Below are positions 9,947 to 23,648 of a DNA stretch of 23,648 nucleotides, one piece after another. This stretch comes from a virus: positions 1 to 23,648 of IMG/VR virus record IMGVR_UViG_3300046656_000180; one strand, given 5' to 3'. The position numbers were made by a program, and so were the translations under genes. Position 1 is the first letter of the stretch. The number at the start of each line of letters is the position of its first letter. The notes beneath the pieces are model-generated. The model saw only the letters and a list, made by a program, of their open reading frames with translations, had not been told where the DNA came from and did no database searches.

Positions 9947-12900
9947 ATGGCAACAATCGGCGAGAAGCGGAGCGCGATTCTTGAGAGGCTGAAAGCGACC
10001 TCGACGCAGTCGGAGGGTCGCCCGCCTCTGTCATCGCTGCCCGATCAAGGACCTATCGAGGCATTTGGGACGGGGTTTGCGCGCCAGGCAACGGCCCCTC
10101 TCGATGTGCTCGGTCTTGCGGTAGAGCCGGCGTACGGACCCAAGGGACCTGGCGTGGCTGGAACCTTGGGCGAGCTCGCCGGCTCTATCGCTCCCTATCT
10201 GGCGGTTGAAGCGGCCCTCGCAAAGTTCATCCCATTGCTCCGAGCAAGGAACTTGCTCACCTCGGCGCTGAGGACTGGGACGACATTCGGGGCCGTGGAC
10301 TTCGGGCGCAAGCCCCAACCCGGTGATACCCGTGCCCGCAATGCGGTCGAAGGGGCGATGTCTGGAGCGATCTTTGGCTCCTTCCTGGCTCCGACATTGG
10401 GACCGACAGGCGAGGTGATCTCAGAGGCTTCGGTCCCCAAGGCGATGCTTGGAGGCGCTCTGTCCTCGGTCGTTCCTGCGACCGTCGGTGGGCATCCAAA
10501 CGCCCCCGTCAATTTCACCGGCAACCAAGTCCTGGACTCAGCGATCTTCAACGCGGCCCTTGCTGGCGCCTTCCAGAAGCTTGGTCAGTACATCCCGAGT
10601 GGCGAGACGGAACCCAAGCCGCCGACCGCGGATGCGGCGCCCAAGGGACCGATTACGGACCCCAGGCGGTTGCTCAGGCCGAGGACATTTTATCAGCCTC
10701 CAAGTCCGACGGAGACGGGTGGTCCAGTTATTGACATTGGGCCGGCTCCGACACCATCAGCGCCGATCAACCCACTCGACCAGGTTGTGGAGCCGAACAA
10801 GGCGCCATTCATCTTTGCGCCCGGTGCGGACTCGGCAGAGCTTCAGTCAGCTCGGGCCGGGTTGAACCAAGCCCTTGCTTCGCGACCACAAGTCGTCCCA
10901 CCCAGCTCCACCCTCGACCTTGCGGCTACGATCAAGGATGCGAGAAGGGGACAGGCGCCTCTTCCAAGGCTCCGTGACCTCAACCCACCCGAGCAACTCG
11001 CTCTTCCTGGTGGCGCCCCAGACCTCATGCCGATGCAACCGGGACCGGCGTCGGAGTTCGTCCAGCCTGGGGCGATTGCGGAGAAACTCGCAAATCATGG
11101 AGTCAAGCTCGCTCCTGCCGTTCCTGTAGTCAAGGTCGAGAATCTTGACCCGCTGTCTGGTGAGCATTCAGGCGAGTGGATGGCCGTAATCAAGTCTGGT
11201 CAGCCCGTCAATCTTATTCGCGGGCTGAGCAAGGAAGAACTTGACATCTCGGCTAAGCAACAGTTCATGCAGTCGCGATTTGGTGGGCCCAATGATCGGC
11301 ACCAGGTAACATCTCGCTCAGAGCCTGTAACCTATGCCACTCCCGATGCGAGGACAGCAGTAAACTTTGGCGACTACTTTGTCGTCTTTGACGGTCAGGG
11401 TTTGCCAGTCCATTCCGGCTATGCCGCTAAGGGTGGCTATCTGACAAAGCTTCCCGATGCCCTTGACGAGTCAGCAGCGGTCGCTATCCATGGCCCAATT
11501 CCCTGGGACCGCGTTAAGTTCCTTGGCAAGTGGACTGACAACGGCAAGAACTTTGACGTCATCCCGTTAACCGAGGCGTACTCCATTCCACGGGCCACAG
11601 GAGCGAAGACTGCAAGAGTTTCCCCCGTCGATCCTGGCCAACTCGTCCAGCTTGTTCGCTCCTCGGATGAACAAGCAGTCCTCGACAACCTCGCCGGAGA
11701 GATTCGGTCAGGCGCCAAGGTCAAGAAAGGTCGAGTCATCGCCCTCGAACCTGACACAGCGGATTCGTTCAGGGCGAAGTTCGTGGAGGGTGGCGCTATT
11801 CCTGGCTTCGACCCTGACACGGGAGCGATCAACACGGCAGGGTTGAGCCATGAGAATCTGGCTGAGCTCATCACCCTCGCCGAGGACTCAGGCGATCAGG
11901 AGCTTATCCAGTCGCTCGAACGAACGAAGGCAGGTCTTGGTGGCAAGGGCAAGAAGATGGGAGTCGTCCGAGAGCGTCTTGTCCCACAGACGCGTCGCGA
12001 GATCGTGGCTGGGAACATCGCAGACTTGGCGGCAGATGCCAAGCCGACGGCTGAAGAAGTGATGCTCGCAGCCGAGTCGAATACGACCCTTGATGAGGCC
12101 GCGGATGCTGGGGGACGGGCGATCGCAGAGCTGGAGACTGGTGAACCTCCCGAGAGTCTGAGGACGGCCAAGAGCAAGAAGTTCGTCGATGACTTGGCTA
12201 AGGTCAAGCAGGGTCGGAGTGGAGACATCTACAGCTACGGCAACTTGATCAAGGCGATGAAGGACCTTGGCACGCCAATCGTTGGCTCTCAGGGTGAAGG
12301 CTTCAGGGTTGCCATGCCAGATAAGACCATCGTCACCCTGTCCAAGGATGAGGTGATTGCCAGGGTCACCGCCTCGCTCCCCCCGACGGATGCGGTGCCG
12401 GTGTTCCAGGGGCAAGATTTGCCTCCGATTGCTCAGCCTTGGAAGGAAGAGCAGCTTCATCTACCTGGAGTCAAGGCGGTCGCGGAGCCGGCGCTGGGGT
12501 ATGTCAAGCCGATTCCAGAGCCCTCTGCGGACGTGGTGATCCAGTCGGCCGAGAGAGAAGCTGGGATCAATAAGCCACCGACTCCACCGGTAACGCCACC
12601 CGCCCAGAACTATGGTGGCAAGCCATCGACGGTTGAGCTTAAGCCGACCAACAAGAATATCGACGCCTTCAACAAGGAGCGGGGTATCGAGCGGGTTGCC
12701 AAGCGTCTCTCGAATAAGATGAAGGCCCCATACGTTAAAGGGGAAGCGGCAGCCAAGGCGATCGAAGTCGACGATACTCCAAATGGCGTTATCCTGACCG
12801 ATCACGTGTCGGGCAAGGTGACCAAGGTCAAGAACATGGCCGAAGCGGCCAAGGTCATCAGCTCGAACACGAACAATGAAGGGCCGATGAGGTCGGACGA

Positions 12901-15049
12901 GGAGCTCCGCTCGATCTTCCGGCGCCGATTCGCTGGGGCGGACAGCGCGAAGTATCGGAACAACATTAAGAAGAAGTATGCGCTCTACGCCGAATATTTC
13001 CCCAAGCCAGGTGAGATCTTGAGGGCGGGCGAGACGCCCCTGAACTCGCTAGACGGTCTGATCAATTCGCGAGTCCCTCCAACAGTGGACCTGACACCCG
13101 TTGAGGCCGGTTCTGGTGGGAGATTAACTCTCCCCCCGGACCAGGTCCCGGTCCCACCCCGTGGTGGGCCTCCGATTGATCCGCCGACAGAGTGGTCGAA
13201 GCTGTGGTGGGAGTCGATGTCGAGATACTGGACGGGGATGAAGCAATGGTCGCTCAACGTCCAGGGCAAGACGAAGGGCCAGATTGCGGCGTACGATACC
13301 GTGTTCTCTCCGCTCTTCGATGGAGTGACGAAGTTTCAGAATGCGCGGGATCAGTATCTTGAGTGGCTTGTCCCGTCGATTAAGGCGACGAAGGGTAAGG
13401 CGGCCGGTGAGAGGATCACGCGCTATATGGAGGCCCCGGACAAGGCCGCGGCTATCCGTGACTTCGGTATCTCGCCTAAAGAGGTCCAGGTCGCGCAACT
13501 CTATCGGACGAAGCTCGATCAAGCCTTCAAGGACTTTGGCTACGAAAACGAAGTTCCGTACGTCCAGAACTACATGACGTGGCGCCGTGAGAATCCGCAG
13601 TATACTCCGGCGCAGGCGCTTGACACTTACTGGAAAGGTCGGGCGAAGCCAAAGAGCTATGCGACCATCTCCGAACTCGAACGCGAGACGAATGGCGACT
13701 GGGCCCGCGAGATGGATGCGCATAAGATCGTGAACGAGTACTTCTTCCGAGGGCTGAGGAAGCAACACTTGTCTGCCCCCCATGCCGCCGCGGTTGACTA
13801 TGTCAACTCGCTCAAGCCGGCCCCAGGCTACCAGCCCGTCGTCCAGCACATGGCTGACTTCGTCAACTACTCCTGGGGCTCCTCGGAGATGAGCCGACGG
13901 GCGCTCGACACATTCTTCAAGGGCGCCCTCGATACCCTTGGTGTCAAGCACGCTCACGAGACCCGAGACGATCTCATCACGATCATGCAACAGCTCAACA
14001 CCAGCGCCCTCATGGGCTGGAGGGCTCCTCTTGTCATCCGCAACGGCTTCCAAATCTTCTTCGCATATCCCATGCTCGGTGAGAAGTACTTCGGCATCGG
14101 GATGAAAGAAGCCTTGTCGAAGGAGGGGCAGGCAAGAGCTCGAGCGGCCTTCGGTATCGTCGGAGGTCCCCCAGTACCGGGTGCCGACGAGATGTACAGT
14201 ATGACGGGTATGCTCGGCAAGATCACTCGGTCAGGGTTGGCTGGATACGCGGGAGTTGACGACTTCACTCGGATCGTGGCGTACCTTGGAACGCGGGCGA
14301 AGGTCATGGATGCGGCCATCGCGTACCGTGGGCATGGGAACATTGCGAAGTTCGCGGAGGATGCCGAGCTCTTGAGCATGTTCCATCCCGTCGAAGCCCA
14401 GGCGATTACGAAGTTGGCCCAGTCGGGGAACTCGGTGGCGGCGGCAGATAGAGCAGGCTACCTGATGCAGCAGAATACGAACTTCATTTACGGAACGGCG
14501 AATAACCCTGCGGCGTTCCGTGGCGTGGCTGGTCGGCTCTTCGGCCAGTTCGGCGTCTGGCCGACTTCGTATATTCAGTACGCTCGGTACATCTCACAGT
14601 TCGGAACGACCGCCCAGCGGGGCGACAAGATCGCGAGGTTCCTGGCGATGAACACCGCCTTCGGGGCCGCAGGGACTCTGCTCGGGGTGAATACCTGGAA
14701 GTGGCTGATGTTTGGCCCGCTCGTATTCACTGGGGGTCCCATGGCCCAGACCGCCTTGGATGCCGCTAAGGTGGCGTCCAACTTTGTTCAGGGTCGTAAG
14801 GACCCAGAGGCGGAGCTGGCGGCTTCGAGGCTGAAGAACACGGTGCCGACGCTCATCGTTCCTGGGGCGATGGCGCTGAAGGATATTGAGGGCACGTTGA
14901 AAGAAGCTCCGCATGGTGCTCAAGCCGTTCTCACTCGGGCTCTTCTAGGGCAGGCACCTCAAGGTGCCCCACCGTCTCTCTTGCCGCCCGGAGCTCGACG
15001 TCAAGCGATTGCTGAAGCAATTCGACGTCGGCAGAGGCCAGGTCAATAG
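9947..15049 (+). CDS. Very large internal virion / ejection protein (T7 gp16-like by position)
   Basis: 1700 residues, multi-domain. (a) Residues 60-190: hydrophobic, Gly/Ala-rich helices (GELAGSIAPYLAVEAALAKF; EGAMSGAIFGSFLAPTLGP), likely membrane-active. (b) About 190-380: Pro-rich linker. (c) About 384-545: a compact alpha/beta domain with LIRGLSKEEL, YATPDARTAVNFGDYFVVFD and ESAAVAIHGPIPWDRVKFLG, of uncertain class. (d) About 560-1080: charged helical and linker regions. (e) About 1085-1560: large helical domain with WRAPLVIRNGFQIFFAYP and FGQFGVWPTSYIQYARYISQ, resembling the C-terminal region of polyvalent phage ejection proteins. (f) A hydrophobic stretch near 1560-1600 (FLAMNTAFGAAGTLLG). 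I see no lytic transglycosylase motif like the one in T7 gp16. Its last 119 bp overlap a gene on the other strand. Confidence 0.65.
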   Translation: MATIGEKRSAILERLKATSTQSEGRPPLSSLPDQGPIEAFGTGFARQATAPLDVLGLAVEPAYGPKGPGVAGTLGELAGSIAPYLAVEAALAKFIPLLRARNLLTSALRTGTTFGAVDFGRKPQPGDTRARNAVEGAMSGAIFGSFLAPTLGPTGEVISEASVPKAMLGGALSSVVPATVGGHPNAPVNFTGNQVLDSAIFNAALAGAFQKLGQYIPSGETEPKPPTADAAPKGPITDPRRLLRPRTFYQPPSPTETGGPVIDIGPAPTPSAPINPLDQVVEPNKAPFIFAPGADSAELQSARAGLNQALASRPQVVPPSSTLDLAATIKDARRGQAPLPRLRDLNPPEQLALPGGAPDLMPMQPGPASEFVQPGAIAEKLANHGVKLAPAVPVVKVENLDPLSGEHSGEWMAVIKSGQPVNLIRGLSKEELDISAKQQFMQSRFGGPNDRHQVTSRSEPVTYATPDARTAVNFGDYFVVFDGQGLPVHSGYAAKGGYLTKLPDALDESAAVAIHGPIPWDRVKFLGKWTDNGKNFDVIPLTEAYSIPRATGAKTARVSPVDPGQLVQLVRSSDEQAVLDNLAGEIRSGAKVKKGRVIALEPDTADSFRAKFVEGGAIPGFDPDTGAINTAGLSHENLAELITLAEDSGDQELIQSLERTKAGLGGKGKKMGVVRERLVPQTRREIVAGNIADLAADAKPTAEEVMLAAESNTTLDEAADAGGRAIAELETGEPPESLRTAKSKKFVDDLAKVKQGRSGDIYSYGNLIKAMKDLGTPIVGSQGEGFRVAMPDKTIVTLSKDEVIARVTASLPPTDAVPVFQGQDLPPIAQPWKEEQLHLPGVKAVAEPALGYVKPIPEPSADVVIQSAEREAGINKPPTPPVTPPAQNYGGKPSTVELKPTNKNIDAFNKERGIERVAKRLSNKMKAPYVKGEAAAKAIEVDDTPNGVILTDHVSGKVTKVKNMAEAAKVISSNTNNEGPMRSDEELRSIFRRRFAGADSAKYRNNIKKKYALYAEYFPKPGEILRAGETPLNSLDGLINSRVPPTVDLTPVEAGSGGRLTLPPDQVPVPPRGGPPIDPPTEWSKLWWESMSRYWTGMKQWSLNVQGKTKGQIAAYDTVFSPLFDGVTKFQNARDQYLEWLVPSIKATKGKAAGERITRYMEAPDKAAAIRDFGISPKEVQVAQLYRTKLDQAFKDFGYENEVPYVQNYMTWRRENPQYTPAQALDTYWKGRAKPKSYATISELERETNGDWAREMDAHKIVNEYFFRGLRKQHLSAPHAAAVDYVNSLKPAPGYQPVVQHMADFVNYSWGSSEMSRRALDTFFKGALDTLGVKHAHETRDDLITIMQQLNTSALMGWRAPLVIRNGFQIFFAYPMLGEKYFGIGMKEALSKEGQARARAAFGIVGGPPVPGADEMYSMTGMLGKITRSGLAGYAGVDDFTRIVAYLGTRAKVMDAAIAYRGHGNIAKFAEDAELLSMFHPVEAQAITKLAQSGNSVAAADRAGYLMQQNTNFIYGTANNPAAFRGVAGRLFGQFGVWPTSYIQYARYISQFGTTAQRGDKIARFLAMNTAFGAAGTLLGVNTWKWLMFGPLVFTGGPMAQTALDAAKVASNFVQGRKDPEAELAASRLKNTVPTLIVPGAMALKDIEGTLKEAPHGAQAVLTRALLGQAPQGAPPSLLPPGARRQAIAEAIRRRQRPGQ

Positions 15050-17292: not shown

Positions 17293-17510
17293 CAGAGCTG
17301 GAGCTGACGCTGAAAGACACCATCACGAAGCGCGAGCTTCAGCTCCATCTCAGTCTGGACAATTCGCTCGGCCAAGGCCGCGGCCGCATCCAAATGCCGC
17401 CCCATTTCGATGGTCAAGCCTTCAAGCTCTTGGAACTTCACGCTAACGAACTGTGCGACGGAGTCGTCTCCAATCACCTGCCAGTCCTTCTTCTCTTGAG
17501 GCTTCGTCAT
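17292..17510 (-). CDS. Small helical protein after DNA polymerase
   Basis: 72 residues, family not recognised. I chose ATG 17510 because GGGAG lies five bases upstream; it starts 68 bases before the polymerase stop, out of frame. Residues about 17-68 form one long amphipathic helix (VAQFVSVKFQELEGLTIEMG... HLDAAAALAERIVQTEMELK), so a coiled-coil dimer is likely. The N-terminus is charged (MTKPQEKKDW). Position between polymerase and helicase-like gene suggests a replication accessory protein, which is inference. Confidence 0.6.
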   Translation of the reverse strand: MTKPQEKKDWQVIGDDSVAQFVSVKFQELEGLTIEMGRHLDAAAALAERIVQTEMELKLALRDGVFQRQLQL

Positions 17511-19839
17511 AGTTTCTCCCAATCGTTGCCTTGGTGGGACAACCGAATCCATCGAGCTTTTCACGACCACGGGACATGACCTTGCCCATCAGCTCCGAGA
17601 CCTCCTCAGCCATCGTCTCGGGGCAGGTGACAACTATTTCGTCATGGACCCACATGAGCTGGCGTGCCGGTGACGGAAGCAACTTCGCTAATTCGAGGGC
17701 GCTCTCGGCCATCATATCGAACTCGGTCATCTGAGGCAGACAGATGAACGCCTCAGTCGCAAAGTTCCGATTCCAGAGCCAGCGAACGCGGTGGTAGGGG
17801 TTCTTGAGGTAGTTTCGTTCTTCGACTGTATTCAGCAGGCCGTCACGCCAGCGTTTGAGTTCGGGGTACTCTGACCAGATGAAGTCAATGAAGCGTTGGG
17901 CATAGGCTTGTTCGACACCGTACATCGTGGCCAAGCCCGCAGCCCTCTGGCCGAATTGGATGCCGTAGTACATGTTCTTGGTCAGCGAGCGGTGCGTCTT
18001 TGTGATCTCCGTGTCCCCGTAGAATCGTTGGGCATGGAGAGTATGGGCATCGGGTTGTGTCGGATCGAGGTCACGGGCGCAGCATCGTTCCATGAGCTTC
18101 GCGCAGCTGCTGAACCAGGCCCCCAGACGCATCTGAATTTGCGAGTAGTCGACCTTGATGATCACCCAGTCACCGTGGTCCGGGAGCACCATCGCTCTCG
18201 GCAGCCCTTGTGGCAGCTGCATCACATTCGGGTCCTGGGCCGATAATCGCCCTGTGACCTGCCTGTGTTGCAGGAAGCTCGGATGCCATCGCCCATCTGG
18301 ATGCAGATCGCTTCCACTCAAGAACGTGTCGAGCATCTTGTCGAACTGCTTGATTGACCCGAGAGCTTCGAGCACGGGCTTGTAACTTTTCCACTCGGCC
18401 GAGGCGCTCGGGTCAGAGACGATCTTAGTCAAGTCGTCTAGGGCGTAGTGGTCAGTTGTCGGCTTCCTCGTCCGTCGATGGAGCTGAATGGGTAGCTTCA
18501 TTACCTCGTAGAAGAGCGTTGCAAGTTGCTTGGGGGATTTGCGGTTGAAGATTGGGCCGAGTGTCTCTGTCAGAGTCTTGTCGTATCGCTGAATGATCGA
18601 TTCGCAGGCGACATAGGCCTTGGCCATGGCTTCCTTGTCGACACGGATACCTAGGCGGCTGGCGGTGGCGCATAGGTCAGCCATCGGCACCTGCTTCTCC
18701 CAAAAGAGGTCGGTGCAGCCGATGTCATCCATGCGTTCCTTCATCTTCTCGGCCATCTCAAGCGTGATACTCACGTCAAGACAGTTCCGCATGGGGTCCT
18801 TGGTTGTCAGATGCTTCCAGGGCTCGTAATCGAGGTGGCGAGAGGCTCCACCTTCCAGGCTAAAGTCACCCATGTCGGATTCGACGAGATGGTCGGCGAG
18901 CATGCAGTCGAATTGAAGGTTGTCGTTCACCCAGCCATTGTCGATTAGCCGGTACTTGTCGAACTGGGCGTTGTTCCAGCCAACGAGCTTCTTGGTTTTG
19001 TCGGCAAGAATCTTCTGGATGCGCTCTCGGTACCGTTGGAAGGCCCACGGCATGAACGTGACCGCTCTGCCAGGCTTGTCGCTCAGCCCGATCATCGTAA
19101 TGGTCTTGCCATCGCCTTGTGGGTAGTTCGTCTCGACGTCCAGCCCGAACTCTGGCGACTTCTCAATGCGATCGAGCATGTCCTCGCAGTCCGCCTCCTT
19201 CGCATGGGGGACCAATTCGCGAGTGACGGACACGGAGGCATGGCCAGTCGCCAGCCTCTTGACCTTGACCAGGTCCTTGATGACGATCGGCAGATAGTCC
19301 CGCGTCTCGCCGATGTTCTTGGCTTCGCTCTTGCTCCAAATGAGGCCGGCCGGCTCGAGGGTGATGACGACGGGGATGCCGGCGAGGTTGTGTATCGTCC
19401 CCCTCTCGTGCTTGACCTTGTCGACGTTGCAGAGGATCTTCGCGGGCATGGAGCCGATCGCGATGATGCAAGGATTTGGATTTGCCTTGATCACCGCAAG
19501 TTCATCCGAGAAGTACTGGCTCATGCAGTAGTGGACCTCGGCCAGCGTCGGCTCCGGCCCTCCGCACTTGACTAGATTCGTGAGCGCGACACGTCCTCTA
19601 GACAATCCAGCGCGGATAAGCAGGTTGTCAAACAAGCGACCAGCCCCGCCCGAGTAGGGCTTGCCGGTCCGAGCCTCAGCATCACCTGGGCTTCTCCCCA
19701 CACCGAGTATTGACGAATCTCGATTACCGTCCGTGGGGACGAAACCTTTCCCATGTCCAAAACGGGGACAACCCTTGCATTGCTCGGGCTTGATTCCACG
19801 GCTCAGCCTCCAATCACCTTCTCGTTTCCAGTCGTCCAT
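17443..19839 (-). CDS. Family-A DNA polymerase with N-terminal UDG-like domain
   Basis: 798 residues. Residues 20-170: family-4 uracil-DNA-glycosylase-like domain with four Cys placed for a [4Fe-4S] cluster (C21, C24, C92, C105) and TGKPYSGGAGRLFD (58-71). The usual GE(G/A)PG Glu is Arg (GRSPG, R49) and the HP His is Glu (LEPAG, E162), so glycosylase activity is doubtful. Residues 230-365: 3'-5' exonuclease with D234/E236 (GLDVET), N290/D294 (WNNAQFD) and D355, but Arg instead of Tyr at -4 in motif III. Residues 430-780: polymerase with TGRLS (529-533), motif A DYSQIQMR (564-571; the usual Glu is Gln), motif B R617-x3-K621-x3-Y625-x3-F629-G, and motif C HDE (732-734). The start overlaps the previous stop (TAATG). 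It is the replicative polymerase of the phage. Confidence 0.92.
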   Translation of the reverse strand: MDDWKREGDWRLSRGIKPEQCKGCPRFGHGKGFVPTDGNRDSSILGVGRSPGDAEARTGKPYSGGAGRLFDNLLIRAGLSRGRVALTNLVKCGGPEPTLAEVHYCMSQYFSDELAVIKANPNPCIIAIGSMPAKILCNVDKVKHERGTIHNLAGIPVVITLEPAGLIWSKSEAKNIGETRDYLPIVIKDLVKVKRLATGHASVSVTRELVPHAKEADCEDMLDRIEKSPEFGLDVETNYPQGDGKTITMIGLSDKPGRAVTFMPWAFQRYRERIQKILADKTKKLVGWNNAQFDKYRLIDNGWVNDNLQFDCMLADHLVESDMGDFSLEGGASRHLDYEPWKHLTTKDPMRNCLDVSITLEMAEKMKERMDDIGCTDLFWEKQVPMADLCATASRLGIRVDKEAMAKAYVACESIIQRYDKTLTETLGPIFNRKSPKQLATLFYEVMKLPIQLHRRTRKPTTDHYALDDLTKIVSDPSASAEWKSYKPVLEALGSIKQFDKMLDTFLSGSDLHPDGRWHPSFLQHRQVTGRLSAQDPNVMQLPQGLPRAMVLPDHGDWVIIKVDYSQIQMRLGAWFSSCAKLMERCCARDLDPTQPDAHTLHAQRFYGDTEITKTHRSLTKNMYYGIQFGQRAAGLATMYGVEQAYAQRFIDFIWSEYPELKRWRDGLLNTVEERNYLKNPYHRVRWLWNRNFATEAFICLPQMTEFDMMAESALELAKLLPSPARQLMWVHDEIVVTCPETMAEEVSELMGKVMSRGREKLDGFGCPTKATIGRNYDEASREEGLAGDWRRLRRTVR

Positions 19840-20492: not shown

Positions 20493-21505
20493 GGCTTCTC
20501 CATGACCAAGATTTCGTCCGACGTGATGTCGAGCGTTGGGACTCGGTAGTCACGGGCGAGCCGGACGATGGGACCCATGCCCGCTTCGCGAAGAGCCGTC
20601 TCGTACATCCTGGGAGTGTCGACGCCATGGTAGGATGCTGAGACGATGACAACTCGTCCCCCCGATACAAGCGATTCGAACATCCTCGCGGAGAGTTGCT
20701 TGACGGATGCGGAGTACTCGGCCAATGATTGGCTGATTCCGAGCGTGTCTACCTGTGGCCGACTGAGGCCAAGTAGCTGCCTCATCTCACGATGCCTTGC
20801 GTTGTAATCGATCGCATCGAAGTATGGCGGTGAGGTCACGATCGCGTCCACACCATGGCTTCCGGCGAGCGTCGAGTCTGCATCCTGCTCCGACACGGTC
20901 GAGGTCGCAATCGTCGGGGGACAGGATTGGCGCTGCTGGGCGATGGGTGGAATAGTGTCATGCCCATGCCAGAGACGCTCGAAGGCATCTTCGAACATCT
21001 TGATGTAGTTGGTGACCTTGGCGTTGGTGAGCCAGACGGCAAATGGATCGACATCGCCCCCGATGGTCTTGAAGCCCATGAGATTGGCTTCGAGGATGAC
21101 GGTGCCGCTGCCACAGAAGGGGTCGACGACCACGGCGTCGGCCTTGCCATTGACTGCGAGGTTGATACAGGCCCGAGCGAGTCGCGGCTCGAGCTTCCCC
21201 GTGAATGGCCACATCGAATGGGTCGAGTGGTCGATTCGCTTGTCGTATCGGTGGCCTCGGATCTTGGCCCAGAGCGTTGGAATCTCCATGCCAAGTTCGC
21301 CAAGCGGGTGCTCGACTACTGCATCGAACATTGCAAGACGTGAAATTGAGCGCTCGAAATTCTCGAAAACAACTTCGCAACAGCCCCGATCTCGGTAGGT
21401 TGGATAAGTCAGACCCTCCGCATCTCTTCCGATTTGCGAATCAAGCTCAGCAAGCGCGATGTCCAGCTCTTGGAGGTTCTGAGCGTTCGTTCTGAGGGTA
21501 GTCAT
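20489..21505 (-). CDS. DNA methyltransferase (N6-adenine or N4-cytosine type)
   Basis: 338 residues from ATG 21505, which overlaps the upstream stop (ATGA) with AAGGA just before. DPFCGSGT (128-135) is the S-adenosylmethionine motif I, followed by a strand with acid (GGDVD), and TSPPY (224-228) is catalytic motif IV of amino-methyltransferases. The order I then IV with only ~90 residues between them, with DPF.GSGT before SPPY, differs from the common beta class (IV first), so target and class are uncertain. No restriction enzyme is nearby; an orphan phage methylase commonly protects against host restriction or marks its own genome. An RNA methylase is a less likely alternative because TSPPY favours DNA substrates. 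Confidence 0.75.
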   Translation of the reverse strand: MTTLRTNAQNLQELDIALAELDSQIGRDAEGLTYPTYRDRGCCEVVFENFERSISRLAMFDAVVEHPLGELGMEIPTLWAKIRGHRYDKRIDHSTHSMWPFTGKLEPRLARACINLAVNGKADAVVVDPFCGSGTVILEANLMGFKTIGGDVDPFAVWLTNAKVTNYIKMFEDAFERLWHGHDTIPPIAQQRQSCPPTIATSTVSEQDADSTLAGSHGVDAIVTSPPYFDAIDYNARHREMRQLLGLSRPQVDTLGISQSLAEYSASVKQLSARMFESLVSGGRVVIVSASYHGVDTPRMYETALREAGMGPIVRLARDYRVPTLDITSDEILVMEKP

Positions 21506-21786
21506 TCCTTGATCGCCTGCTCGAGAACGGCAGCCCAGCCGGCGACGTCCACAATTGAATCGTCTTTGAGGCTGTAGGTCAGCCGAGACAGCTTCAGAGC
21601 GATCATGCACATGGGGACCTGAAAAGGCTGAATTGGAAAGCCGAGAATTGCCGACCACATCTGGGCGATCCGAACCATGTCCGCCTTGACAGGGCCATAG
21701 TCCGTCATCCGATCGCCAAAGACGGCATTCCTCGCTTTGTCAAGGATGGTTTCTGGAAGTGTTGCTGGAACGTTGAGAGAGGGCAT
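21502..21786 (-). CDS. DUF6378 family protein
   Basis: 94 residues. The pattern GDRMTDYGPVKADMVRIAQM followed by W-SAILG, MIALKLSRL and DSIVDVAGWAAVLEQA matches DUF6378, a small all-helical phage and bacterial family with the same order: 'gDR..dYG....n..ria.lwsa.lg', then 'm.llKlaRl', then 'DsivDaaGYaal'. The biochemical role is not established to my knowledge; a nucleotide-metabolism role is sometimes guessed from its MazG-like helices. ATG 21786 has AGGAGG eight bases upstream. It lies between a sigma factor and a DNA methyltransferase. Confidence 0.75.
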   Translation of the reverse strand: MPSLNVPATLPETILDKARNAVFGDRMTDYGPVKADMVRIAQMWSAILGFPIQPFQVPMCMIALKLSRLTYSLKDDSIVDVAGWAAVLEQAIKE

Positions 21787-21788
21787 GG

Positions 21789-22376
21789 CTACTTCCTCCT
21801 CTTGGATAGCCCCATGCGGAGCTTCTTCAATGCGTTCTGTTCAATGCGGTGGACGTCTGAGTGAGAGACATAGCCGAGGGCTTCGGCGATTTCTTGTAGG
21901 GTGGTCTTGTCAGGAGCGAGCCACCGCATCGCGATGACGAGTCGCTCAAGGTCATCGAGGTCGGTGGCGAGATGTTCGCGCAGGTGCTTCTGCAGATCCT
22001 GGCGGATGTACTCAATCTCGTGGCTGTCGAGCGCCCGCTCATTCGGCTCAGCCCAGTCCTCGGGCTCGACCTCTTCTTCTGGCGGTTGCTGAAAGTTGTC
22101 ACGGTCCTGGAATACTGCCATGATCTTATTGAGCACCCAGGGGTAGGCGTAGGTGCTGAATGCGATCTGTCGCGAGGGGTCGAAACGACGGGCGGCTTCG
22201 AGTAGACCAAGCAGGCCCTCCTGCACCAGGTCATTGAAGTCGGTGGGGTTGTAACTGTGCTGACGGGCAAGCTTATAGACAAGCCCCATGTTCTCGATAA
22301 CGATCGTCCACGCTGCCTCCGGTGGCGGTGGATTCGGTGGCTCCGGTTCGTCCGACATGAGAGTGGCGGCTTCCAT
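21789..22376 (-). CDS. Phage RNA polymerase sigma factor (sigma-70 family)
   Basis: 195 residues. Region 2 is at about 24-90: NPTDFNDLVQEGLLGLLEAA (core-binding helix, 43-62) and FDPSRQIAFSTYAYPWVLNK (-10 recognition and melting, 65-84). An acidic linker (PEEEVEPEDWAEPNE) replaces region 3, and region 4 (about 140-190) contains the -35 HTH (TTLQEIAEALGYVSHSDVHR). The domain set (2+4) fits a compact alternative sigma factor. The likely job is to direct host RNA polymerase to phage late or middle promoters. ATG 22376 starts two bases after the previous stop; ATG 22358 is an alternative without the Pro-rich context change. No promoter of matching type is visible in the window. Confidence 0.88.
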   Translation of the reverse strand: MEAATLMSDEPEPPNPPPPEAAWTIVIENMGLVYKLARQHSYNPTDFNDLVQEGLLGLLEAARRFDPSRQIAFSTYAYPWVLNKIMAVFQDRDNFQQPPEEEVEPEDWAEPNERALDSHEIEYIRQDLQKHLREHLATDLDDLERLVIAMRWLAPDKTTLQEIAEALGYVSHSDVHRIEQNALKKLRMGLSKRRK

Positions 22377-22378
22377 GG

Positions 22379-22666
22379 CTACGGTGTTACGATCGCTAGA
22401 ATCTCGCTCTCGACAAACACCTCGACCTTGCCCAGGTCACGGTCATCGAACGGTGACCCGTCGAGCCATGTAATGAGCACCCCGTCCCCCGGGCGAATGT
22501 CCTCGCGGACGTCAGGCCCGACGGATACGACCTTGCCATACCGCGACTTCGCCTTCGCCATCTCGGGAATGACGATGAGGCCATTCTCGAAGTGGTTCGC
22601 AATGTCTGGGGGCAAGGTTCGTGGATCGCGTCGGACGACCAACTTGTTACCGATTGGGGTTAGCAT
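22379..22666 (-). CDS. groES: GroES-like co-chaperonin
   Basis: 95 residues, the usual Cpn10 length. Start ATG 22666 has AAGGAG at seven bases. Landmarks: N-terminal LTPIGNKLVVRRD (2-14), a mobile loop of about 15-36 with ENGLIVIPEMAK, where GLIVIP matches the GG-I-V-L segment that binds GroEL, KSRYGKVVSVGPDV (40-53), RPGDGVLI (58-65), and the C-terminal strand VESEILAIV (85-93). Phage co-chaperonins (T4 gp31, RB49 CocO) replace host GroES on host GroEL to fold the major capsid protein. No GroEL is encoded here, so a similar use of host GroEL is likely (inference). Confidence 0.88.
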   Translation of the reverse strand: MLTPIGNKLVVRRDPRTLPPDIANHFENGLIVIPEMAKAKSRYGKVVSVGPDVREDIRPGDGVLITWLDGSPFDDRDLGKVEVFVESEILAIVTP

Positions 22667-22859
22667 CTGTACTCTCCTTGTTATCGTTGGCGATTCCATC
22701 TCGGACAAGCGATTCGACGGCTTCGTGGAATACGTGGCATTGGAAACAGCTATCGACGTTGAAACTTCCATCAAGGCATGCCCGATTGTGGAGCTGTTGG
22801 CATCGGCATGGGCAGGCTAGATGGGCGAGTCTACGTCGTTCGAGCCAGTAGATACTCAT
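22647..22859 (-). CDS. Cys/His-rich small protein
   Basis: 70 residues from ATG 22859, which overlaps the upstream stop (ATGA); the end overlaps the co-chaperonin start by 20 bases. It has six Cys (C16, C18, C20, C28, C38, C41) and several His (H24, H42, H45), with CPCRC and CFQCHVFH clusters, suggesting one or two bound zinc ions. The C-terminus is polar. I recognise no family and see no clear DNA-binding basic face. No strong ribosome binding site is seen; expression probably depends on coupling to the metalloprotease gene. Confidence 0.55.
   Translation of the reverse strand: MSIYWLERRRLAHLACPCRCQQLHNRACLDGSFNVDSCFQCHVFHEAVESLVRDGIANDNKESTDANPNR
22674..22679 (-). promoter_or_regulatory. 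Ribosome binding site for the GroES-like gene
   Basis: AAGGAG (read on the - strand) with seven bases to ATG 22666. It decides the start of the co-chaperonin and excludes the 36-residue longer open frame. Confidence 0.6.
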
Positions 22860-23648
22860 GGGCAAGTTCTTGTTACACTCAACGTCGCTTCCGTGGCGTC
22901 CGAGGAGAGCATCGTCACGGTGATTCCACGGTAGGGGTCATTAAACGAATCCGTGAGCGTTACTGGACGGAGGTTGTTGACCAAGTTCATCTCAACGTCG
23001 AATGCCCACACGAACCCGTTGTCGATCGGGTACCCCTCGTGCAACCACACCCACACCCCATCCGGCCTGTACTCCAGCGAGTAGAACCACCCAGGGTGCG
23101 CCGCATCAAGAGGAATCCGTAGCTCCCTCGGTGTCACCACACCGTCGAGGGCCTTCACCACGTAGGAGTTCGTCCCGCACGCGGCAAAGATTCTCTCCGT
23201 CGAAGTCTGCCAGCCTAACAACGCCCGGTGGAATGCCGAGAGTGGGAGCGTTCCTACCCCCATCGGCTCACCAGCCCCTGGTATAGGACCAGACTGATAC
23301 CGCGAGGCGAAGCACCCTCCAGTCGCCGGCACCTCGATCGACACCCCCGTGTCGGCTGCCGGTATGCACGTCCACGACCCTGAGTGGTATAACCCCTCCG
23401 CATGCCCCCACTCATGTATGAACGAATCGGCATGGAAGAAGTCACTCCCAATCTGCCCGCCTGACTCGCCCCCTGACATGTGGACATACATTTGTAATAC
23501 CATCTTGTAATCGCCAGTCCTATACCCCAGCCCCTCTAGGATCGCAAGGGAGTCAATTCGCATCTGGAGGAAGTCGCAATTCGACCAGTTCACTTCCGGT
23601 GATATTGGAGGCGTGCGGCAGTAGTACGCTAGCCCGTGCGGCATGACA
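22856..23648 (-). CDS. Metzincin-type metalloprotease (M11-like), N-truncated by window edge
   Basis: At least 262 residues; the frame stays open to the window edge, so the first ATG (23644) is probably internal. HEWGHAEGLYH (77-87) is the HExxHxxGxxH zinc site of metzincins, with E78 as catalytic base and H77, H81 and H87 as ligands. GEPMGVG (125-131), then AFHRALLGW (137-145), match the Met-turn and 'h...LGW' region of gametolysin-like M11 peptidases. Around eight Cys (C9, C23, C93, C111, C156 and others) and a beta-rich C-terminus suggest an extracellular or periplasmic enzyme. Its stop overlaps the next gene (ATGA), so it belongs to the operon. The substrate is unknown: host surface protein, envelope or virion processing are possible. 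Confidence 0.7.
   Translation of the reverse strand, partial: VMPHGLAYYCRTPPISPEVNWSNCDFLQMRIDSLAILEGLGYRTGDYKMVLQMYVHMSGGESGGQIGSDFFHADSFIHEWGHAEGLYHSGSWTCIPAADTGVSIEVPATGGCFASRYQSGPIPGAGEPMGVGTLPLSAFHRALLGWQTSTERIFAACGTNSYVVKALDGVVTPRELRIPLDAAHPGWFYSLEYRPDGVWVWLHEGYPIDNGFVWAFDVEMNLVNNLRPVTLTDSFNDPYRGITVTMLSSDATEATLSVTRTCP

Follow-up and report, generated by a model that had tools for sequence, protein, structure and literature searches.

The window, that is the whole analysed stretch of 23,648 bases, is identical to the linear virus record IMGVR_UViG_3300046656_000180 (G000), which contains nothing beyond it. A metzincin protease gene, delimited from the list of open reading frames and the alignment with the homolog L272, is located on the minus strand at 22856..>23648 and is 5'-truncated by the contig end. 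The ORF is still open at this end, and 263 aa remain of an estimated length of ~345 aa, corresponding to the last three quarters of the gene. As the alignment starts at residue 81 of L272, ~80 N-terminal residues are missing from the window protein.

Residues 1-77 (23417..23647, minus strand) were assigned to a partial N-terminal zincin half by the alignments, the mapping of cysteines and the L272 model. This part contains C10 and C24, two of the four cysteines in common with L272, and a helix/strand preceding the active-site helix. The zinc-binding motif HEWGHAEGLYH was read in the sequence at residues 78-88 (23384..23416, minus). The HExxHxxGxxH pattern occurs once in the six frames of the window, compared with 0.01 expected from 200 shuffles. 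The Met-turn EPMG is located at residues 127-130 (23258..23269, minus), and its M129 aligned with M208 of L272. Both the zinc motif and the Met-turn reported in the preliminary description were thus confirmed, and the protein has two sequence features of the metzincin superfamily (MA(M) subclan), a HExxHxxGxx(H/D) zinc motif and a downstream Met-turn. According to the alignments, LGW (residues 144-146) and a C-terminal beta-domain reaching residue 263 follow at 22859..23218 (minus), with ~115 residues after LGW. These two elements are common to the window protein, L272, the more distant relative L301 and the Pfam-M11 phage protein L033.

The genes downstream of the protease are on the same strand in the order of GroES, sigma factor, DUF6378 protein, DNA methyltransferase, two small ORFs, UDG+PolA protein and a DUF3987 primase/helicase-like protein. 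The GroES-like co-chaperonin (22379..22666, minus) matched Pfam Cpn10 with 33.2 bits and has AAGGAG 5' of its ATG. The sigma-70-family factor (21789..22376, minus) was recognised by Pfam Sigma70_r2 and r4 and by phrog_351. The PHROG matches of the DUF6378 protein (21502-21786, minus) are labelled phosphofructokinase, which is a doubtful label. The 798-aa UDG+PolA protein (17443-19839, minus) comprises an N-terminal uracil-DNA glycosylase domain (residues 36-174) and a C-terminal family A DNA polymerase (405-776); such a fusion is known in phages, since phrog_17 covers both domains. A 1700-aa ORF on the plus strand (9947-15049) had no Pfam or PHROG match; it probably encodes a large protein of the virion. 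Lysis genes were not recognised anywhere in the window.

The protease had been described as the head of an early operon in which phage replication genes are coupled by ATGA. The position at the head was not borne out: the record stops within the protease gene, so the apparent head results from where the contig stops. The presence of GroES, sigma and replication genes on the same strand was verified and the ATGA overlap is real, the protease stop TGA (22856-22858) overlapping an ATG (22857-22859), but functional coupling was not confirmed. The overlapping start belongs to a doubtful 70-codon ORF (22647..22859, minus) with no Shine-Dalgarno sequence, no homolog among phages and no match in Pfam or PHROGs. 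The coding score of this ORF was -0.056, lower than the +0.066 of its own antisense frame; the metzincin scored 0.002 versus 0.17-0.26 for the other genes of the window. The ATGA overlap was consequently rejected as a proof of an operon. The scan for sigma-70-like promoters on the minus strand between 15 and 23.6 kb revealed none, the sites being no more numerous than in shuffles. Because the overlapped ORF is doubtful, GroES has its own AAGGAG and no promoter was found, the protease may stand apart from the GroES group by ~190 bp.

Searches with the single protein as the query, conducted against viral and genome contigs and against phages and plasmids, gave no relative, and neither did the two-row alignment A2. 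With the polymerase and the sigma factor as queries, no related viral contigs were found. L272 was obtained with a DNA pattern for HExGHxxGLxHA in IMG/VR contigs. It is a full-length homolog of the window protein (E 8.7e-20, 37% identity) encoded by the 46-kb phage contig G024. In the pairwise alignment, 90 of the 226 aligned residues were identical, and the score of 229 was well above those of shuffled sequences (mean 36, maximum 55). The four conserved cysteines correspond to C10, C24, C94 and C112. The N-terminus of L272, MKKLVICTIILRILSAIPSIA, contains a hydrophobic stretch which, read by eye, is an apparent Sec signal peptide. L301 on contig G025 was determined to be the second homolog with an E value of 6.8e-10.

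The DNA patterns HExGHxxGLYH, HEWGHxxGL and HExGHxxGLxHA were detected in 108, 28 and 92 IMG/VR stretches, respectively. The Pfam scan of 57 sequences, 56 of them representing the HExGHxxGLYH and HEWGHxxGL sets and one being the window protein, resulted in matches to M43, M10, M12-like, M57, M54 and M64 families, and to M11 in two members. The counts and the several families matched indicate that metzincins in viral contigs are varied rather than exceptional; the contigs with the motif make up a small fraction of the 2.9 million in IMG/VR. In L005 (3-1163), the metzincin motif lies within the apparent C-terminal part of a tape-measure protein, and the 900-1400-aa ORFs with HExGHxxGLxHA in L244, L240, L254 and L294 may resemble it.

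Capsid proteins similar to that of the window occur in Alcaligenes phage QDWS535, DSL-LC04, 023Pt_psg01 and phages like them. Those examined have GroES among the virion genes, upstream of the one for the capsid, whereas in the window it accompanies the sigma and replication genes. The A2 profile, used without a positive control, matched nothing in 27 capsid-related records (four phages and 23 IMG/VR relatives), and the metzincin motif was absent from ~750 kb of such records, many of which are short fragments. The earlier statement that such proteases are rare in tailed phages applies only with reservation: the 108 IMG/VR stretches with HExGHxxGLYH alone, from several metzincin families, speak against it, although these 27 records show none.

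The determined Pfam matches of the window protein were weak and restricted to the zinc motif, M66 with 15.2 bits and Reprolysin_3 with 12.8 bits, both below the cut-offs. No match was obtained with PHROGs and NCBIfam. In the Pfam scan, the curated cut-off of Peptidase_M11 (PF05548), 21 bits, was missed by the window protein, L272 and L301, and passed by L033, L255 and L264 from phage contigs and, by 0.1 bit, by L226. The search of the window record itself with PF05548 was also empty, though no positive control gave a signal there. In contrast, the hhalign comparison of the window clade with an M11-like set (L033, L255, L264 and the below-cut-off L229) resulted in a probability of 98.8% and an E value of 1.2e-16 over 282 columns, the C-terminal beta-domain among them; two other metzincin sets used as controls aligned over only 44 and 16 columns around the zinc motif. 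The window protein aligned with L033 alone with a score of 93 (500 shuffles: mean 35, sd 5, maximum 58). The M11 (gametolysin-like) phage members share with the window protein HExGHxxGLxH, the Met-turn, LGW after it and the C-terminal beta-domain. Since the homology to M11 proteins extends beyond the zinc motif yet the Pfam cut-off is missed, the window protein is, judged by its sequence, M11-like and not an M11 member. The M11-like assignment proposed at first was thereby upheld by the full-length phage homolog, the controlled profile comparison and the modelled topology of L272, and strict M11 membership was not.

The structure prediction was informative only in the case of the homolog. The AlphaFold model of mature L272, built with seven sequences, had a pLDDT of 63.9; its strands and helices are arranged in a metzincin-like order, with a C-terminal beta-domain after them. 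The model of the window fragment (two sequences, pLDDT 40.6) was too poor for use. The nearest solved structures to the L272 model were OgpA with E 1.2e-3 (Foldseek probability 1.00) and ADAM-8 with E 0.04; none was below E 0.001. OgpA, the O-glycopeptidase of Akkermansia muciniphila (PDB 6z2d), also combines a metzincin domain with a beta-sandwich and is annotated as M11 by NCBI. However, it shares 15% identity with L272 at a TM-score of ~0.3 to a model of pLDDT 64, and glycopeptide specificity is not implied. According to the authors of the OgpA study, M11 had no solved structure (PMC7518263). The sole viral predicted structure below E 0.001 was the uncharacterised Gaeavirus sp. protein A0A3G5A2V9 (E 2.0e-7), which differs from L272 in its 9% identity, its length of 603 aa and its origin from a eukaryotic (giant) virus. 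The model is thus supportive of the metzincin fold of L272 but not conclusive.

The amino-acid-normalised codon score of the metzincin, 0.016, was below those of all 97 equal-sized stretches from other genes (mean 0.133, sd 0.045, minimum 0.020), whereas the codon usage of the metzincins in G024, G025 and G027 fits their own contigs. This atypical codon usage suggests either that the phage acquired the gene recently or that the contig was chimerically joined near 22.7-22.86 kb. A wrong joining of the terminal ~0.8 kb from another genome, host DNA included, would also be in agreement with the ~190 bp of weak coding signal between the metzincin and GroES and with the location of the gene at the extreme end of the contig. 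Nevertheless, such a chimera is considered unlikely: the closest homolog found resides on a phage contig, atypical composition is common among accessory phage genes and the GC content of the metzincin (58.6%) matches that of the contig, so that GC gives no separation. The codon usage, together with the patchy occurrence among the 27 capsid-related records, would also fit with an auxiliary gene whose secreted product aids the infected cell or lysogen in nutrient gain or competition. No integrase or repressor was recognised in the window, which is an incomplete contig, and we regard this function as improbable.

The related proteases were located at the end of the virion block in three uncultured phage contigs, G024, G025 and G027. 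The gene order in G024 is M23-type endolysin, holin-like protein, coiled-coil membrane protein, phosphoesterase, beta-propeller, metzincin, secreted beta-helix, a weakly spanin-like protein and a minus-strand polymerase; the lysis assignment is firm for the endolysin only, the holin- and spanin-like calls being weak or made by eye. In G025, tail-like genes precede the metzincin, which is followed by a signal-peptide protein, a small membrane protein and the replication block. The metzincin of G027, an M11 member, is succeeded by a secreted beta-helix and small membrane proteins. Two unrelated phage contigs encode, beside the metzincin or close to it, signal-peptide beta-helix-like proteins with the mature start ATTYY... 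(L272:1620-4190 and L033:3602-4714), and Pfam Beta_helix was confirmed for the neighbour of L272 but not for that of L033.

The beta-propeller and beta-helix proteins adjoining the G024 and G027 relatives are reminiscent of tail spikes, which, along with the metzincin domain in the apparent tape-measure-type protein of L005, would suit an entry protease in or on the particle that removes capsule, S-layer or surface proteins when the phage adsorbs. This role is doubtful, because the metzincin of G024 and both beta-helix neighbours read as Sec signal-peptide proteins, which is not expected of components of a particle put together in the cytoplasm, and the window gene is distant from the virion genes. 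Even less probable is a cytoplasmic protease acting with the sigma factor and the co-chaperonin in early takeover or counter-defence. The gene is close to GroES and sigma on the same strand, but its four cysteines are conserved with an apparently exported homolog, the relatives occupy the late end and the ORF in the ATGA overlap is doubtful.

The conserved cysteines, the apparently exported homolog and the lysis-end positions suggest an exported enzyme acting around lysis. With moderate confidence, we propose that the gene is an accessory gene of the phage encoding a Sec-exported metzincin endopeptidase which cuts envelope or extracellular proteins of the host at about the time of lysis. As the relatives stand where the block of virion genes ends and, where the context is best resolved, adjoin lysis genes, a cargo enzyme digesting host surface proteins at this stage is the most likely function. 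The complete protein of ~345 aa would consist of a signal peptide, a zincin catalytic domain and the C-terminal beta-domain, and its gene would have been acquired by the phage. During infection, the protease would reach the periplasm or cell surface by export, with zinc bound through His78, His82 and His88 and Glu79 as the general base. The cutting of envelope or extracellular proteins around lysis could then ease cell break-up and virion release, or clear debris and receptors. The computed basis of this role comprises the catalytic signature, the Met-turn, the full-length phage homolog, the M11-like relation and the relatives' location at the virion/lysis end; the catalytic activity, the export of the window protein (any signal peptide of this copy would lie off the contig), the timing, the substrate and the benefit we infer. 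The adjacency of the window gene to GroES, sigma and replication genes rather than to lysis genes argues against it, as does codon usage that is the most atypical of the comparable stretches.

In the literature on phage gametolysins, phage metalloproteases and viral peptidases, the only direct precedent found was the Listeria mtz-tim pair. Mtz, a metzincin of phage origin, together with Tim raises the sensitivity to phage lysis only if it is catalytically active, and the pair is frequently located downstream of holin-lysin in prophages (PMC8235301). By its published description, Mtz is likewise a phage-associated exported metzincin, encoded in prophages by an accessory gene; the host is different. 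No TIMP-like partner was recognised in the window, where the downstream 70-codon ORF matches nothing and the upstream side is off the contig. Among the roles put forward in the preliminary description (action on the host surface, on an inhibitor, in entry or in exit), exit is best supported, by the virion/lysis-end positions of the relatives and the Listeria precedent.

More speculatively, and rather against expectation, the metzincin clade, which lies outside every curated family searched, may form with secreted beta-helix proteins and lysis genes an "exit module" of uncultured phages by which surface proteins of the host are digested at lysis, moved in this phage beside the GroES, sigma and replication genes and made early. 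The window gene, L272 and L301 represent a named, testable gene group, the window protein of which is missed by Pfam M11, PHROGs and NCBIfam. The exit of phages from Gram-negative hosts is usually described in terms of holin, endolysin and spanin. If several unrelated phages do encode an exported protease at their lysis end, the digestion of proteins would be a further step in this scheme.
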